Shown here piece by piece: positions 24,290-37,273 of a stretch of DNA of 64,000 nucleotides. This stretch comes from Ramlibacter sp. (GTDB taxonomy: Bacteria; Pseudomonadota; Gammaproteobacteria; Burkholderiales; Burkholderiaceae_C), in contig NZ_JARXAB010000053.1 in NCBI RefSeq assembly GCF_029866045.1, forward strand, positions 1 to 64,000, written 5' to 3'. Made by a program: the position numbers and the translations under genes. The notes beneath the pieces are model-generated. The model made no database searches and was not told the origin of the DNA. It saw only the letters and a program-made list of their open reading frames with translations. Within the stretch, counting starts at the first letter, position 1; every line of letters begins with the position of its first letter.

Positions 24290-25075
24290 TCACGGCCGCA
24301 CCCCGGGCGTTTCGACCGTGAGCCCGAGGGCGCGGGTGGCCAGATGCAGCTCGAGTTGGACCATCTCCTCGCTGTGGAGGGGCAGGGGGTCGGCGCGCAC
24401 GCCCGTCATGCAATTGCGGACGCGGCGGCCCAGAGAGCCCATACTTTGCCATTCCAGGCGGTAGAGCGGGTAGGCATTGGCCTGACCTTGGGGGATGAGG
24501 ACACCTGCCAGACGGCCGCCGGCGAGCTGGTCGTGGCAGGCCACGCAGGAGAGATTCAATTGCCCGATGCGTTGCTGGAACAGCGCCGCGCCGCGCTCGC
24601 GAGAGGGGTCGAGCCGCCGGTCGGGGTTGGGCGTGACCGGCATGCCGCGCGATTGCAGGCCGACGGCGGCCTCGAGAGACAGCAGGTCGGAGTGCTCGGG
24701 GGACCAGGGGGGCTGGCCCTGGTGGCGCTGGCGGCACAGGTTGATGCGGTGACCCAGGTTGACGGGCCGTTGCAGGGTGGCGTCCCAGGCCGGGTAGCGC
24801 GCAGCCACGCCGCGCAGGCCGGTGATCTCGCCGTGGCACGCGATGCAGGCCTTCGATTGCGCCGCAGGGGCCTGGGCCCACAGTTGGCGTCCGCCTTCGA
24901 CCCAGAGCATGGCGGGGTTGGCGCCGTCGTCACGCTGCATGGCCTGGACAGCTGCACCCATGTCCTCGAAGCCGGAGCGGGCGGGCTGCGCGAGCGCCGA
25001 GGGGCCTGTAGCCGGCGGTGCCAGCGCGCAGCCGGCGAGGGCCGCGACAGTCAGCAGCGCCAGGCGCCAGCTCAT
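24290..25075 (-). CDS. soxA: Sulfur-oxidation cytochrome SoxA, dihaem type
   Basis: ATG 25075 overlaps the soxZ stop (ATGA) and opens a hydrophobic segment with lipobox-like LAGC (Cys16). The 261-residue product has two haem motifs, CIACH (77-81) and CVACH (177-181), the extra cysteine ligand Cys114 in INLCRQRH, and Cys222 in VRNCMTGVRA, the persulfide haem ligand. SoxXA oxidatively couples a sulfur substrate to the SoxY cysteine in the periplasm. It is last in a soxXYZA group. All catalytic residues I can check are present, so this half of the system looks functional. Confidence 0.93.
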   Translation of the reverse strand: MSWRLALLTVAALAGCALAPPATGPSALAQPARSGFEDMGAAVQAMQRDDGANPAMLWVEGGRQLWAQAPAAQSKACIACHGEITGLRGVAARYPAWDATLQRPVNLGHRINLCRQRHQGQPPWSPEHSDLLSLEAAVGLQSRGMPVTPNPDRRLDPSRERGAALFQQRIGQLNLSCVACHDQLAGGRLAGVLIPQGQANAYPLYRLEWQSMGSLGRRVRNCMTGVRADPLPLHSEEMVQLELHLATRALGLTVETPGVRP

Positions 25076-25398
25076 AGCACGCGCAGGTCGCGACGCTCGG
25101 TGTGGGCAAAGCCTCGGTCGCCTTGCCATTCAAAGGTGAGCGTGCCGCTGTCGGTGGCCACAGTGTGGAAGGCGAGGTAGGGGTTGGCGGCGATGGCCGG
25201 GTGCAGTTCGGCGCTGAAGACCAGCTCGCCGTTGTAGCGGCAGGCGAAACGCTGCACCACGTCGCGCGGCACCGGGCGCCCGTCGGCGCCAGGGCGGAAG
25301 CCGGTTTCCATGGGGTGGGCAATGGTGGCGCGCACCTCGATGACCTCACCGCGCCGGGCGGTGGCGGGGACCTGAATCAGGACGCGTGGCGTGCTCAT
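25072..25398 (-). CDS. soxZ: Sulfur carrier subunit SoxZ
   Basis: This 108-residue protein has an immunoglobulin-like SoxZ fold: TARRGEVIEVRATIAHPMETGFR near the N-terminus, DVVQRFACRYNGELVFSAELHPAIAANPY, and TLTFEWQGDRGFAHT at the C-terminus. SoxZ holds SoxY and contacts the other Sox enzymes. It lies 4 bases after soxY and overlaps soxA. No signal peptide is present, as usual, since SoxZ is exported with SoxY. Confidence 0.92.
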   Translation of the reverse strand: MSTPRVLIQVPATARRGEVIEVRATIAHPMETGFRPGADGRPVPRDVVQRFACRYNGELVFSAELHPAIAANPYLAFHTVATDSGTLTFEWQGDRGFAHTERRDLRVL

Positions 25399-25402
25399 GT
25401 TT

Positions 25403-34406: not shown

Positions 34407-36794
34407 TTACTTGCTTGCCTGGGCCGTCTGGATGGCTTGCCACACGCGGTGCGGGCTGGCGGGCATGTCCAGGTCTTTGACCCCCAGGGGGGCCAGGGCG
34501 TCGAGCACTGCGTTCATGACCGCAGGCGGTGCGCCGATGGCACCGGCCTCGCCGCAGCCCTTGGTACCCAGGGGGTTGGTGGTGCAGGGGGTGACCACAT
34601 GGCCGAGTCGGAACTCGGGCACATCGTCTGCGCGCGGCATGGCGTAGTCCATGAATGAACCGGTGACCAGCTGCCCCGTTTCGCGGTCGTAGACGCAGTG
34701 CTCGAGCAGGGCCTGGCCGATGCCCTGCACCAGCCCGCCGTGTACCTGGCCCTCGACGATCATGGGGTTGATGATGGTGCCGAAGTCATCGACTGCAGTG
34801 AAGCTGTCGATGCGCACCACTCCGGTGTCGGGGTTGACTTCAACCTCGCAGATGTAGGTGCCGCCGGGGAAGGTGAAGTTGGTTGGATCGTAGAAGGCGG
34901 TTTCGTTGAGGCCCGGCTCAAGCTTGTCCAGCGGGTAGTTGTGCGGCACATAGGCGGTGAGCGCCACCTGGCCAAAGGTCACCTTTTTGTCGGTGCCCTT
35001 GACGGTGAACTCGCCGTTGGCGAACTCGACGTCACCATCGCCAGCCTCCATCAGGTGGGCCGCGATCTTCTTGGCCTTGGCCTCGATCTTGTCCAGTGCG
35101 CGCATGATGGCGGCTCCGCCCACGCTGATCGACCGCGAGCCGTAGGTGCCCATGCCAAAGGGCACGCGCCCGGTGTCGCCGTGCACGATGTCTACTTGGG
35201 ACGGGTCCAGCCCGAGGCGGGCAGCCACCACCTGGGCAAAGGTGGTTTCGTGGCCCTGGCCGTGGCTGTGCGAGCCGGTGAACACCGTCACGCTGCCCGT
35301 GGGGTGTACCCGCACCTCGCCGCACTCAAACAGACCAGCGCGCGCGCCCAAGGCACCAGCGATGTTGCTAGGGGCAAGTCCGCAGGCCTCGATGTAGCTG
35401 CTGTAGCCGACGCCGCGCAGCAGCCCCTTGGCCTTGGAGGCCGCCTTGCGCTGGTCAAAGCCTGCTGCATCGCCGAGCTCACGGGCCTGCTTCATGCACG
35501 CGTGGAAGTCGCCGGTGTCGTATTGCAGGGCCACCGGCGTCTGGTAGGGGAACTGGGTGATGAAGTTGCGACGACGGATCTCGTCTTGCGACAGGCCGGT
35601 CTCCCAGGCCGCGCGGCTGACGATGCGCTCGATCAGGTAGGTTGCCTCAGGTCGGCCTGCGCCGCGGTAGGCGTCGACCGGCGAGGTGTTGGTGAACCAG
35701 GCGTCCACCTCGACATAGATCTGCGGGGTGGTGTACTGGCCGGCCAGGAGCGTGGCGTAAAGAATGGTGGGTACTGCGGTCGAGAAGGTCGACAGGTAGG
35801 CGCCCAGGTTGGCATCGGTGTGCACCCGCAAGGCGAGAAACTTGCCGTCCTTGTCCAGGGCCAGCTCACCGTGGGTGACGTGGTCGCGGCCATGGGCGTC
35901 GCTGAGGAAGGCCTCTGAGCGGTCGCAGGTCCACTTGATGGGGCAATTGAGCTTTTTGGCCGCCCAGGTCAGGCACACATCTTCGGCGTAGAGATAAATC
36001 TTGGCGCCAAAGCCACCCCCCACGTCGGGGGCGATCACGCGCACCTTGTGCTCGGGCAGGCCCATGACGAAGGCCGTCATCAGCAGCCGCTCGACGTGCG
36101 GGTTTTGGTTGGACACATAGAGGGTGTAGTCGTCCCCCGCACGGCTGTAGCTGGCGATGGCCGCGCGCGGCTCCATCGGGTTGGGAGCGAGCCGGTTATT
36201 CACCAGGTCCAGCTTGGTGATGTGGGCGGCGTTCTTGAAGGCCGCATCGACGCCGGCCTTGTCGCCGATGGCCCATTTGTAGCAATGGTTGCCCGGGGCG
36301 GCGTCATGCAATTGGGGCGCGTCCCGCTTCATGGTGTCACGCACATCGACAACGGCGGACAGCGGCTCGTAGTCGACCTCCACCAACTCGGCGGCGTTCT
36401 TGGCGTTCTCCAGGGTGTCGGCGACGACCATGGCCACGTGGTCGCCCACATAGCGCACCTTGTCTAGAGCCAAGATGGGGTGGGGCGGCTCTTTCATGGG
36501 TTGGCCGCTGGTATCGGTGATCAGCCAGCCACAGGGCAGGCCGCCGATCTTGTCGGCGGCGACGTCCTTGCCATCGAGCACCCCCACCACGCCGGGCGCC
36601 TTGAGCGCTGCGGACTTGTCAACCTTGCGGATGGCGGCATGTGCATGCGGTGAGCGCACGAAGACCGCGTGATGCATGTTGGGCAACACGATGTCGTCGG
36701 TGTACTGGCCCGCGCCCGTGAGGAAGCGGTAGTCCTCCTTGCGGCGCAGGGACTCGCCGATATGCGGCAGCTTGGAAAGATCAGTGGCACCCAT
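34407..36794 (-). CDS. coxL: Form II CoxL-like molybdopterin-binding large subunit
   Basis: ATG 36794 follows GAGGAGA, giving 795 residues. The active-site loop reads AYRGAGR (375-381), the form II signature; true form I CO dehydrogenase has AYRCSFR with the copper-binding cysteine, which is missing here. Other family motifs are VGGGFGAK (258-265), [14 protein letters not shown] and [12 protein letters not shown] with the catalytic glutamate. No Tat or Sec signal is visible, so it works in the cytoplasm. Form II enzymes act on aldehydes, purines or CoA-linked ring compounds such as furoyl-CoA, so the cox names describe homology, not CO oxidation. Confidence 0.93.
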
Positions 36795-36805
36795 GATGTG
36801 TCTCC

Positions 36806-37273
36806 TCAAGCTTTCATGGCGGCAGCACCTTGCTGCACGGCCTTGACGATGTTCTGGTAGCCCGTGCAGCGGCACAGGTTGCCCTCGAGCTGCTCACGGA
36901 TCTGGGTGGCATCGGCCTTGGGATGGCGCTGGCACAGATCGATCGCACTCATCACCATGCCCGGCGTGCAAAAGCCGCATTGCAGGCCGTGGCACTCCTT
37001 GAAGGCCGCTTGCATCGGGTGCATGGTGCCGTCGGCGGCAGCCACGCCCTCGATGGTGGTGACCTCATGCCCTGCCACCTGGGCCAGCAGCACGTTACAA
37101 GACTTGATGGCTCGCCCGTCGACCAGCACGGTGCACGCGCCGCACTGTGCGGTGTCGCAGCCCACATGGGTGCCAGTGAGGTGGAGGTGTTCGCGGATCG
37201 CCTGGACCAAAAGGGTGTGGGGCGCCGCATCGACGGCCACGGCCTTGCCGTTGACCTTGAGTGCAACCTGCAT
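36806..37273 (-). CDS. coxS: CoxS-like [2Fe-2S] small subunit of a molybdenum hydroxylase
   Basis: The 155-residue product from ATG 37273 (AAGGAGA upstream) has cluster ligands in VGCDTAQCGACTVLVDG, with Cys in IKSCN, and in CGFCTPGMV and CRCTGY. It relays electrons from CoxL to CoxM. It is the first gene of the long - strand operon, with its promoter presumably in 37274-37400, where I see a hairpin but no convincing -10/-35 pair. Confidence 0.93.
   Translation of the reverse strand: MQVALKVNGKAVAVDAAPHTLLVQAIREHLHLTGTHVGCDTAQCGACTVLVDGRAIKSCNVLLAQVAGHEVTTIEGVAAADGTMHPMQAAFKECHGLQCGFCTPGMVMSAIDLCQRHPKADATQIREQLEGNLCRCTGYQNIVKAVQQGAAAMKA

Follow-up and report, generated by a model that had tools for sequence, protein, structure and literature searches.

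A conserved ior-sox unit in a Ramlibacter gene block that also holds a form II CoxL cluster

Described systems and the Ramlibacter block

In Starkeya novella, a second sox cluster (Snov_1975-Snov_1982) combines soxX2Y2Z2A2F2 with a two-gene molybdenum enzyme of the xanthine-oxidase family, with SoxB and SoxCD missing (PMC3797975, 2013). In that paper, SoxAX and SoxYZ of this cluster went undetected in the proteome, where one SoxF-like subunit was present in small amount, and there was very little transcript, the cluster being barely expressed on thiosulfate, methanol or glucose; its authors considered that it may lack functional significance in that organism, or else matter under other conditions. 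Here, we examine a related arrangement in a stretch of 64,000 nucleotides from Ramlibacter sp. (assembly GCF_029866045.1, contig NZ_JARXAB010000053.1, positions 1 to 64,000; the window below). In it, a block of 14 genes joins a cluster of the form II CoxL type (module A) to iorAB-soxXYZA (module B). The main finding is that iorAB-soxXYZA, in some cases accompanied by fccAB, has been conserved as a unit among beta- and alphaproteobacteria; such a unit has been in print at least once, and the sequence evidence on the loading of its carrier is new.

The likeness to the S. novella cluster is one of gene content, with the S. novella side taken from its published description. Both have a two-gene molybdenum enzyme of the xanthine-oxidase family, soxXYZA and a soxF-like gene, and both lack soxB and soxCD. 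By contrast, no cox cluster is described for S. novella in the sections consulted, and soxF lies there with soxXYZA, whereas here the fccAB pair is divergent and set apart by the cox block. The initial annotation of the window knew of no described pathway with this gene set. For the 14 genes together this holds in the literature searched, but the ior-sox-fcc part has been in print since 2013 (PMC3797975). No functional study of the ior-sox unit or of the AACIE arm discussed below was found in that literature, most subscription journals lying outside its scope.

Other described systems resemble parts of the block. The canonical Sox system consists of SoxXA, SoxYZ, SoxB and SoxCD, and SoxC belongs to the sulfite-oxidase family. 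As in that system, SoxX, SoxZ and SoxA of the window score above their family cut-offs; unlike it, the block has no SoxB or SoxCD, its SoxY bears an acidic arm instead of GGCGG, and a molybdenum enzyme of the xanthine-oxidase family takes the place of one from the family of SoxC. The SoxY falls above the cut-off of TIGR04487 (SoxY-related AACIE arm protein) and has a literal AACIE end. The first seven genes recall the form II CoxL clusters, presumably those also called BMS, in their order coxS-L-M-D-E-G-xdhC and in the AYRGAGR motif of CoxL, but mocA and ior-sox follow in line, and CoxL lies below the carbon monoxide (CO) dehydrogenase cut-off. The two-gene enzyme, whose name we take to come from isoquinoline 1-oxidoreductase IorAB, shares with IorAB and with 8gy3, presumably an aldehyde dehydrogenase from acetic acid bacteria, separate [2Fe-2S] and molybdenum subunits and the lack of an adjacent flavin adenine dinucleotide (FAD) subunit; unlike both, it is paired with SoxXA and SoxYZ. 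Finally, a SoxYZ-type carrier is also tied to a non-Sox periplasmic dehydrogenase in the quinoprotein-associated SoxYZ-like carrier (TIGR04557; ped cluster PP_2677). That carrier, however, is a fused SoxYZ with a pyrroloquinoline quinone (PQQ) partner, and SoxY and SoxZ of the window reach 56.9 and 39.1 bits against its cut-off of 140.

As initially annotated, the 14 genes from coxS to soxA are consecutive on the minus strand (24290-37273), and Pfam and NCBIfam agree with their names. In the order coxS-coxL-coxM-coxD-coxE-coxG-xdhC-mocA-iorA-iorB-soxX-soxY-soxZ-soxA, and followed by the nearby fcc pair, the genes are:

36806..37273, minus strand: coxS, [2Fe-2S] subunit of the form II CoxLMS hydroxylase; Fer2_2 and Fer2; glyceraldehyde dehydrogenase gamma as best NCBIfam match, under its cut-off
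34407..36794, minus strand: coxL, molybdopterin large subunit; MoCoBD_1/2; TIGR02416 698 bits, below the cut-off of 991; AYRGAGR motif
33604..34395, minus strand: coxM, FAD subunit; FAD_binding_5
32708..33598, minus strand: coxD, AAA ATPase with a putative maturation role; AAA_5; MadB_ATPase below cut-off
31500..32711, minus strand: coxE, VWA-domain protein with a putative maturation role; VWA_CoxE
30866..31468, minus strand: coxG; COXG
29802..30860, minus strand: xdhC, molybdenum-cofactor insertion/sulfuration chaperone, as judged from its family; XdhC_CoxI and XdhC_C
29173..29805, minus strand: mocA-like cytidylyltransferase; NTP_transf_3; TIGR03310 97.5 bits, below cut-off
28656..29156, minus strand: iorA, [2Fe-2S] subunit; Fer2_2 and Fer2
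26431..28659, minus strand: iorB, molybdopterin subunit, predicted to be exported by twin-arginine translocation (Tat); MoCoBD; GVGEP motif, with the catalytic Glu by family
25904..26362, minus strand: soxX, c-type cytochrome with an uncertain start; TIGR04485 77.2 bits, cut-off 61
25403..25894, minus strand: soxY, acidic AACIE arm; TIGR04487 186.5 bits, cut-off 172
25072..25398, minus strand: soxZ; TIGR04490 76.1 bits, cut-off 76
24290..25075, minus strand: soxA, diheme, catalytic-type Cys222 and Arg218 kept; TIGR04484 198.6 bits, cut-off 110
37679..37990, plus strand: fccA-like monoheme cytochrome c; Cytochrom_C; the same gene adjoins iorA in loci L214, L236, L257 and L259
38000..39271, plus strand: fccB (SoxF-like), flavoprotein of flavocytochrome c sulfide dehydrogenase; FCSD_central and FCSD-flav_bind

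The fccAB pair (37679-39271), absent from the initial annotation, diverges from the block about 400 bases upstream of coxS. From coxS to soxA, the gaps between genes are 11, 11, 5, -4, 31, 5, -4, 16, -4, 68, 9, 4 and -4 bases. A single gap of 68 bases, with all others of 31 or less, had been reported correctly, but the four-base overlaps number four and not five. Moreover, the 68-base gap between iorB and soxX hinges on the uncertain soxX start, the ATG at 26362 not being kept in the sister species. Within 23900-38200, promoter-like sites (1, against 0.8 in shuffled sequence) and terminator-like sites (4, against 7.2) are at chance level, and no Rfam family reaches its threshold within 20500-42500.

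The ior-sox unit and its acidic-arm carrier

The TIGR04487 profile was run over 399 genomes of the order, with 25 above the cut-off and 205 giving some match; 40 loci (about 140 bits or more) were picked by hand, and about 9 to 20 kb were examined at each. In addition, named genomes were scanned with an IorB alignment, and the best 80 of at least 586 loci were kept, among them loci from Ramlibacter, Duganella, Roseateles, Bosea, Bradyrhizobium, Roseococcus, Belnapia, Azospirillum and others. A third set holds 18 loci from the genus and family (L257-L274). The sets overlap (at least L076=L262, L078=L268 and L090=L263), so their counts are not independent, and some stretches stop at the edge of a contig or of the stretch requested; absence, here and below, means absence within the stretch examined.

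In these sets, ior and sox genes mostly go together. The neighbourhood search suggested by the initial annotation bears this out, as iorB is present in 37 of the 40 TIGR04487 loci (once as a fragment) and adjoins soxY there; soxX and soxA are both found in 25 of the 40. Among the best 80 of at least 586 IorB loci, iorA occurs in 78, soxX in 72, soxY in 73, soxZ in 70, soxA in 68, fccB in 20 and a coxL-like gene in 3; of the 69 that extend for at least 2.5 kb beyond iorB, 67 have soxY there. No further gene family is a general neighbour: in two sets, the commonest accounts for 14 of 41 and 23 of 80 loci.

Past soxA, the window holds a set for a tripartite ATP-independent periplasmic (TRAP) type transporter (20942-23757, plus strand, convergent with soxA; DctP by Pfam, the other two by position). 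Such genes were rejected as evidence because they are seen in few loci (dctM in 7 and dctP in 6 of the best 80). Farther off on the other side, at 42532-49102, a creatininase-family gene is followed by genes for an ATP-binding cassette (ABC) transporter of the oligopeptide/nickel type, with a gene for a family 5 solute-binding protein on the opposite strand. Elsewhere, just four alphaproteobacterial loci (L141, L149, L150 and L152) share a set of neighbours: ahead of iorA, an ABC transporter set and a gene resembling polysaccharide deacetylases, and beyond soxA, on the opposite strand, a TauE-type gene. The families come from a scan of L141 alone, where the transporter is of the NMT1 type; these neighbours are a possible hint to the substrate. 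In some genomes of the genus, the iorB matches (L266, L272, L273 and L274) are broken into several pieces, by decay or assembly error, and a faint SoxZ match near 2.3 kb in L264 corresponds to no clear sox gene in a crude list of open reading frames.

IorAB has the features of a xanthine-oxidase-family enzyme: a [2Fe-2S] small subunit, a MoCoBD large subunit and the catalytic Glu. Enzymes of this family hydroxylate carbon and require a terminal Mo=S. IorB carries a twin-arginine signal, SRRGFL, whose arginine pair (R26, R27) is invariant in 20 aligned sequences, as is E707, and its nearest solved chain is 8gy3_C, an aldehyde dehydrogenase large subunit that it matches over its length. Given the need for Mo=S and the tight linkage of ior and sox, it could be that SoxYZ merely repairs IorAB by supplying sulfur to rebuild this ligand in the periplasm. 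Nevertheless, three remoter IorB relatives in the genus (40-45%; L251-L253) lack sox in the 1.5 kb to either side, where mocA or xdhC is found in two of them; the wider family thus seems independent of SoxYZ, and such a repair role is very improbable.

Turning to the carrier, SoxY ends in AACIEIED and reaches 89.5 bits with TIGR04488, below the cut-off of 125, its arm being AACIE rather than GGCGG. SoxA has Cys222 and, four residues before it, Arg218, both kept in about 99% of 119 relatives. In TsdA, Arg119 and Cys123, which have the same spacing, handle thiosulfate (PMC4423706). We considered a further Arg, located two residues ahead of the SoxA cysteine, as a mark of the acidic arm, but dropped it because SoxA of 1h31 has the same Arg.

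The SoxY arm differs between loci with and without SoxXA genes. Where soxX and soxA are both present (n=111), the arm is Cys-x-Glu/Asp in 109 loci, of another kind in one and unreadable in one; where just one of them is present (n=4), it is acidic in three and unreadable in one; and where both are missing (n=16), it is AACLE in five, Cys-Gly in ten and unreadable in one. Three further loci with local SoxXA have SACLD, and seven further loci without it have Cys-Gly (six) or Cys-Asn (one). All five AACLE genomes carry a second, acidic-arm soxXYZA locus (L065, L070, L071, L316 and L317). SoxA was above its cut-off in each of the 24 genomes tested, a result backed by 14 control genomes alone (0 hits), which form an unmatched background; among the 24 are all 17 genomes whose arms are Cys-Gly or Cys-Asn, and five without SoxB above its cut-off (G039, G065, G016, G075 and G148). 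In 13 of those 17 genomes SoxA was read, and it is 26-31% identical to that of the window. Nine SoxA loci from the same genomes were examined for the SoxY beside them: it ends in GGCG in three (L328, L329 and L332) and is unreadable at its end in L330, and five gave no SoxY match. As far as these sequences tell, the arm type tracks the type of SoxXA available, whether adjacent or elsewhere in the genome, a correspondence that is new here. This match is the best hint on loading, and it suggests that SoxXA loads the SoxYZ linked to IorAB.

Five acidic-arm soxXYZA loci (L061, L065, L070, L316 and L317) show no ior in the stretch examined. Four of these genomes (those of L065, L070, L316 and L317) keep iorB and soxYZ on a different contig, which looks as though the unit had been divided.

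The Ramlibacter genome itself (3.85 Mb, 93% complete) has no TIGR04486 candidate for SoxB, and its best TIGR04555 match for SoxC has 23 bits against a cut-off of 420; SoxD was not searched for. As pointed out initially, the unit comes without SoxB or SoxCD. More broadly, we call carrier genomes those with a TIGR04487 match of at least 96 bits (n=70), a line of our own, iorB having been checked directly in part of them. SoxB is lacking in 20 of the 70, that of Ramlibacter included, and SoxC is above its cut-off in 23 of 37 carrier genomes.

The cox cluster and its junction with ior-sox

The genes coxSLMDEG-xdhC form a cluster of the form II CoxL type, which is common in the genus. CoxL of the window has AYRGAGR, which we take to be the form II motif, and lacks AYRCSFR, presumably that of form I CO dehydrogenases; coxSLM are accompanied by D, E and G, in an order kept in relatives. 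By eye, the N-terminus of CoxL has no twin-arginine motif, unlike that of IorB. CoxL has orthologues (E up to 1e-250) in 40 of 300 genomes of the order and in 35 of 51 of the genus. The 17 cox loci examined in the order start with coxS-L-M, mostly followed by D-E-G, with xdhC in 12; none has ior or sox in the stretch examined, and fccB was matched once, at 26%. Likewise, ior and sox are absent from 18 further cox loci of the genus (L288-L305). Twelve of these 18 have a PqqU-like gene (PQQ-receptor-like, TonB) between coxG and xdhC, although the two tested are both below the PqqU cut-off, and three have a PQQ methanol/ethanol dehydrogenase gene; these PQQ-related genes are seen best in L297:8309-19902. 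None of the 18 stretches shows mocA, but some break off within xdhC or directly behind it. The PQQ-receptor-like genes, and sometimes PQQ alcohol dehydrogenase genes, inside the cox clusters of the genus offer a clue to what form II CoxL does.

The same separation is seen from the side of ior-sox. None of the 40 hand-picked TIGR04487 loci has cox genes, and coxD, coxE, coxG, xdhC and mocA are found in 0 of 138 other ior/sox loci (40 + 80 + 18, partly overlapping), 129 of which have iorA with at least 600 bases available upstream. The initial annotation had both hydroxylases and the carrier handle one substrate. The link between IorAB and SoxYZ in that proposal is supported by the iorB and soxY counts given above (37 of 40 and 67 of 69), but a substrate shared by the two hydroxylases is not supported, given the 0 of 138 and the absence of ior and sox from the stretches examined at 35 other cox loci (17 + 18). 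A single, widely conserved 14-gene pathway was rejected, as the modules lie apart in the other loci examined. The family of CoxL and IorB uses molybdopterin cytosine dinucleotide, which is made by MocA and inserted with XdhC, and shared maturation by these two proteins plausibly explains the link with CoxLMS more simply than a shared substrate.

The junction of the two modules is real but rare, and it is shared with the sister species G683 only. In that genome, one contig carries xdhC-mocA-iorAB-soxXYZA, 93.4% identical in DNA to 24283-30641 of the window, and a second carries fccBA-coxSLMDEG-xdhC, 95.8% identical to 30511-39276; both end inside xdhC. IorB is 94% identical, and the mocA-iorA junction aligns with few changes. 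An assembly chimera was rejected, since in G683 a single contig spans this junction, with DNA about 93% identical, and the concern raised at the outset, that the arrangement might be conserved in no relative, is thereby answered. Another genome, G642, matches the cox and fcc side (32440-48877 of the window) up to the end of its contig in coxE, and gave no match to IorB. Between the window and G683, the ratio of nonsynonymous to synonymous substitution rates (dN/dS) is 0.01-0.29 for 13 genes (by a simple counting method, with xdhC left out), and both halves of the block thus look to be under purifying selection.

Some relatives suggest how the junction arose. Without any cox genes in between, fccAB lies beside iorA in four loci, divergent in L214 and L236 and co-directional in L257 and L259. 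Since fccAB adjoins iorA in such relatives, the cox block probably landed between the two, in an ancestor common to at least two species of the genus. Between fccA and coxS, at 37277-37495 on the minus strand, there is a faint match to residues 13-54 of exonuclease III (TIGR00633, E 0.0022; TIGR00195, E 0.011), and coxS is preceded by a similar stretch in L275 (78% and containing a stop) and, with a lower resemblance of 44%, in L276. This stretch is a possible scar of rearrangement.

On balance, the block is probably a lineage-specific tandem of two independent modules, the second of which would run from SoxXA through SoxYZ to IorAB. Several observations weigh against this reading. Some would fit a single pathway, as originally proposed, in which CoxLMS and then IorAB act on the same organosulfur substrate, with SoxYZ as the final recipient of its sulfur: the tight gene order is kept in a second species, and the CoxL orthologue and the soxY marker co-occur more often than expected by chance in the order (21 of 40 against 32 of 260 genomes; p=4e-8, without correction for phylogeny or genome size and on the assumption that the 300 genomes are G000-G299). 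Furthermore, four loci have CoxL-like genes that are distant in sequence (38-43%) but within about 3 to 8 kb of ior or sox, so pairing of ior/sox with a second molybdenum hydroxylase is not unique to this genus:

L091:17426-20250: coxS-like and coxL-like pair, about 3 kb past soxA, same strand
L111:19953-21719: CoxL-like gene, about 6 kb past soxA, opposite strand
L114:4318-8007: divergent coxSLM-like set adjoining iorA, in a locus without sox
L318:15808-17982: CoxL-like gene, about 3 kb upstream of iorA, same strand

Nevertheless, with the accessory genes, xdhC and mocA in none of the 138 ior/sox loci, ior and sox in none of the 35 cox loci, PQQ-related genes instead in 12 of 18 cox clusters of the genus, and co-occurrence of the modules within the genus that is not significant (13 of 15 against 22 of 36, p=0.10), a single pathway appears decidedly unlikely. 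The remaining points concern module B. Its genes do not always stay together, as iorAB orthologues have no adjoining sox in L114, L121, L235 and L260, and 3 of the 40 sox loci have no ior (L061, L065 and L070); the small and unmatched control set behind the SoxA result counts here as well. Finally, SoxB is present in 50 of the 70 carrier genomes against 135 of 329 others (p=5e-6, uncorrected for phylogeny or genome size), and this enrichment, together with the thiosulfate-type residues kept in SoxA, fits thiosulfate better than an organic thiol.

Possible substrates of the carrier

The two modules, their separate existence, their junction in a second species and the apparent match between arm and SoxXA are all read from sequence. 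If the block is a tandem of independent modules, module A would encode a form II CoxLMS hydroxylase that is probably cytoplasmic, together with the factors for its maturation, and iorAB-soxXYZA, with fccAB nearby, would make up a periplasmic system. In the latter, SoxXA would load acidic-arm SoxY, coupling a sulfur compound oxidatively to its cysteine, and SoxYZ would carry the loaded compound to be oxidised by Tat-exported IorAB. The electrons would probably go to c-type cytochromes, since module B has no gene for a FAD subunit, and sulfane sulfur or sulfide released in the process may pass to FccAB. The modules would share the maturation pair XdhC and MocA, and not a substrate.

More specifically, we tentatively propose a 'Sox-Ior' pathway, in which SoxXA would load an organosulfur compound on acidic-arm SoxYZ and the exported hydroxylase would oxidise it on the carrier, replacing SoxB and SoxCD; this proposal is possible but far from secure. 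As to the load, our guess, a doubtful one, is an organic thiol: hydroxylation of the carbon next to the sulfur would leave an aldehyde or keto acid and a persulfide on SoxY. An organic thiol is favoured by the 20 of 70 carrier genomes without SoxB and by the S. novella cluster being barely expressed on thiosulfate.

Alternatively, IorAB could stand in for SoxCD, with SoxXA loading thiosulfate and IorAB oxidising the sulfane sulfur left on SoxY. The retention of thiosulfate-coupling residues in SoxA and the enrichment of SoxB in carrier genomes are in line with such a role, but the carrier genomes without SoxB include that of Ramlibacter itself, 23 of 37 already have a SoxC above the cut-off, and enzymes of the xanthine-oxidase family act on carbon. 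Together with the scarce expression of the S. novella cluster on thiosulfate (PMC3797975), this makes the stand-in role unlikely. In yet another reading, SoxYZ would serve as a thiol handle for aldehydes, and IorAB would oxidise a thiohemiacetal on SoxY. The closeness of IorB to an aldehyde dehydrogenase is consistent with this, and in the ped cluster a SoxYZ-like carrier adjoins PQQ alcohol dehydrogenases (PMC12997753). The match between arm and SoxXA, however, implies that loading is oxidative, and a free aldehyde would require no such step; we therefore give the aldehyde handle little credence.

Because ior-sox occurs in many proteobacteria, including genomes that lack SoxB, soxXYZA alone cannot be read as a sign that thiosulfate is oxidised. 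Together, the fixed pairing of a sulfur carrier with a molybdenum enzyme of the carbon-hydroxylating type and the match between the carrier's arm and SoxXA point to a step of sulfur metabolism that could be tested with a few purified proteins. If the tentative 'Sox-Ior' pathway is true, it would be a case of a periplasmic molybdenum hydroxylase whose substrate is borne by a protein.

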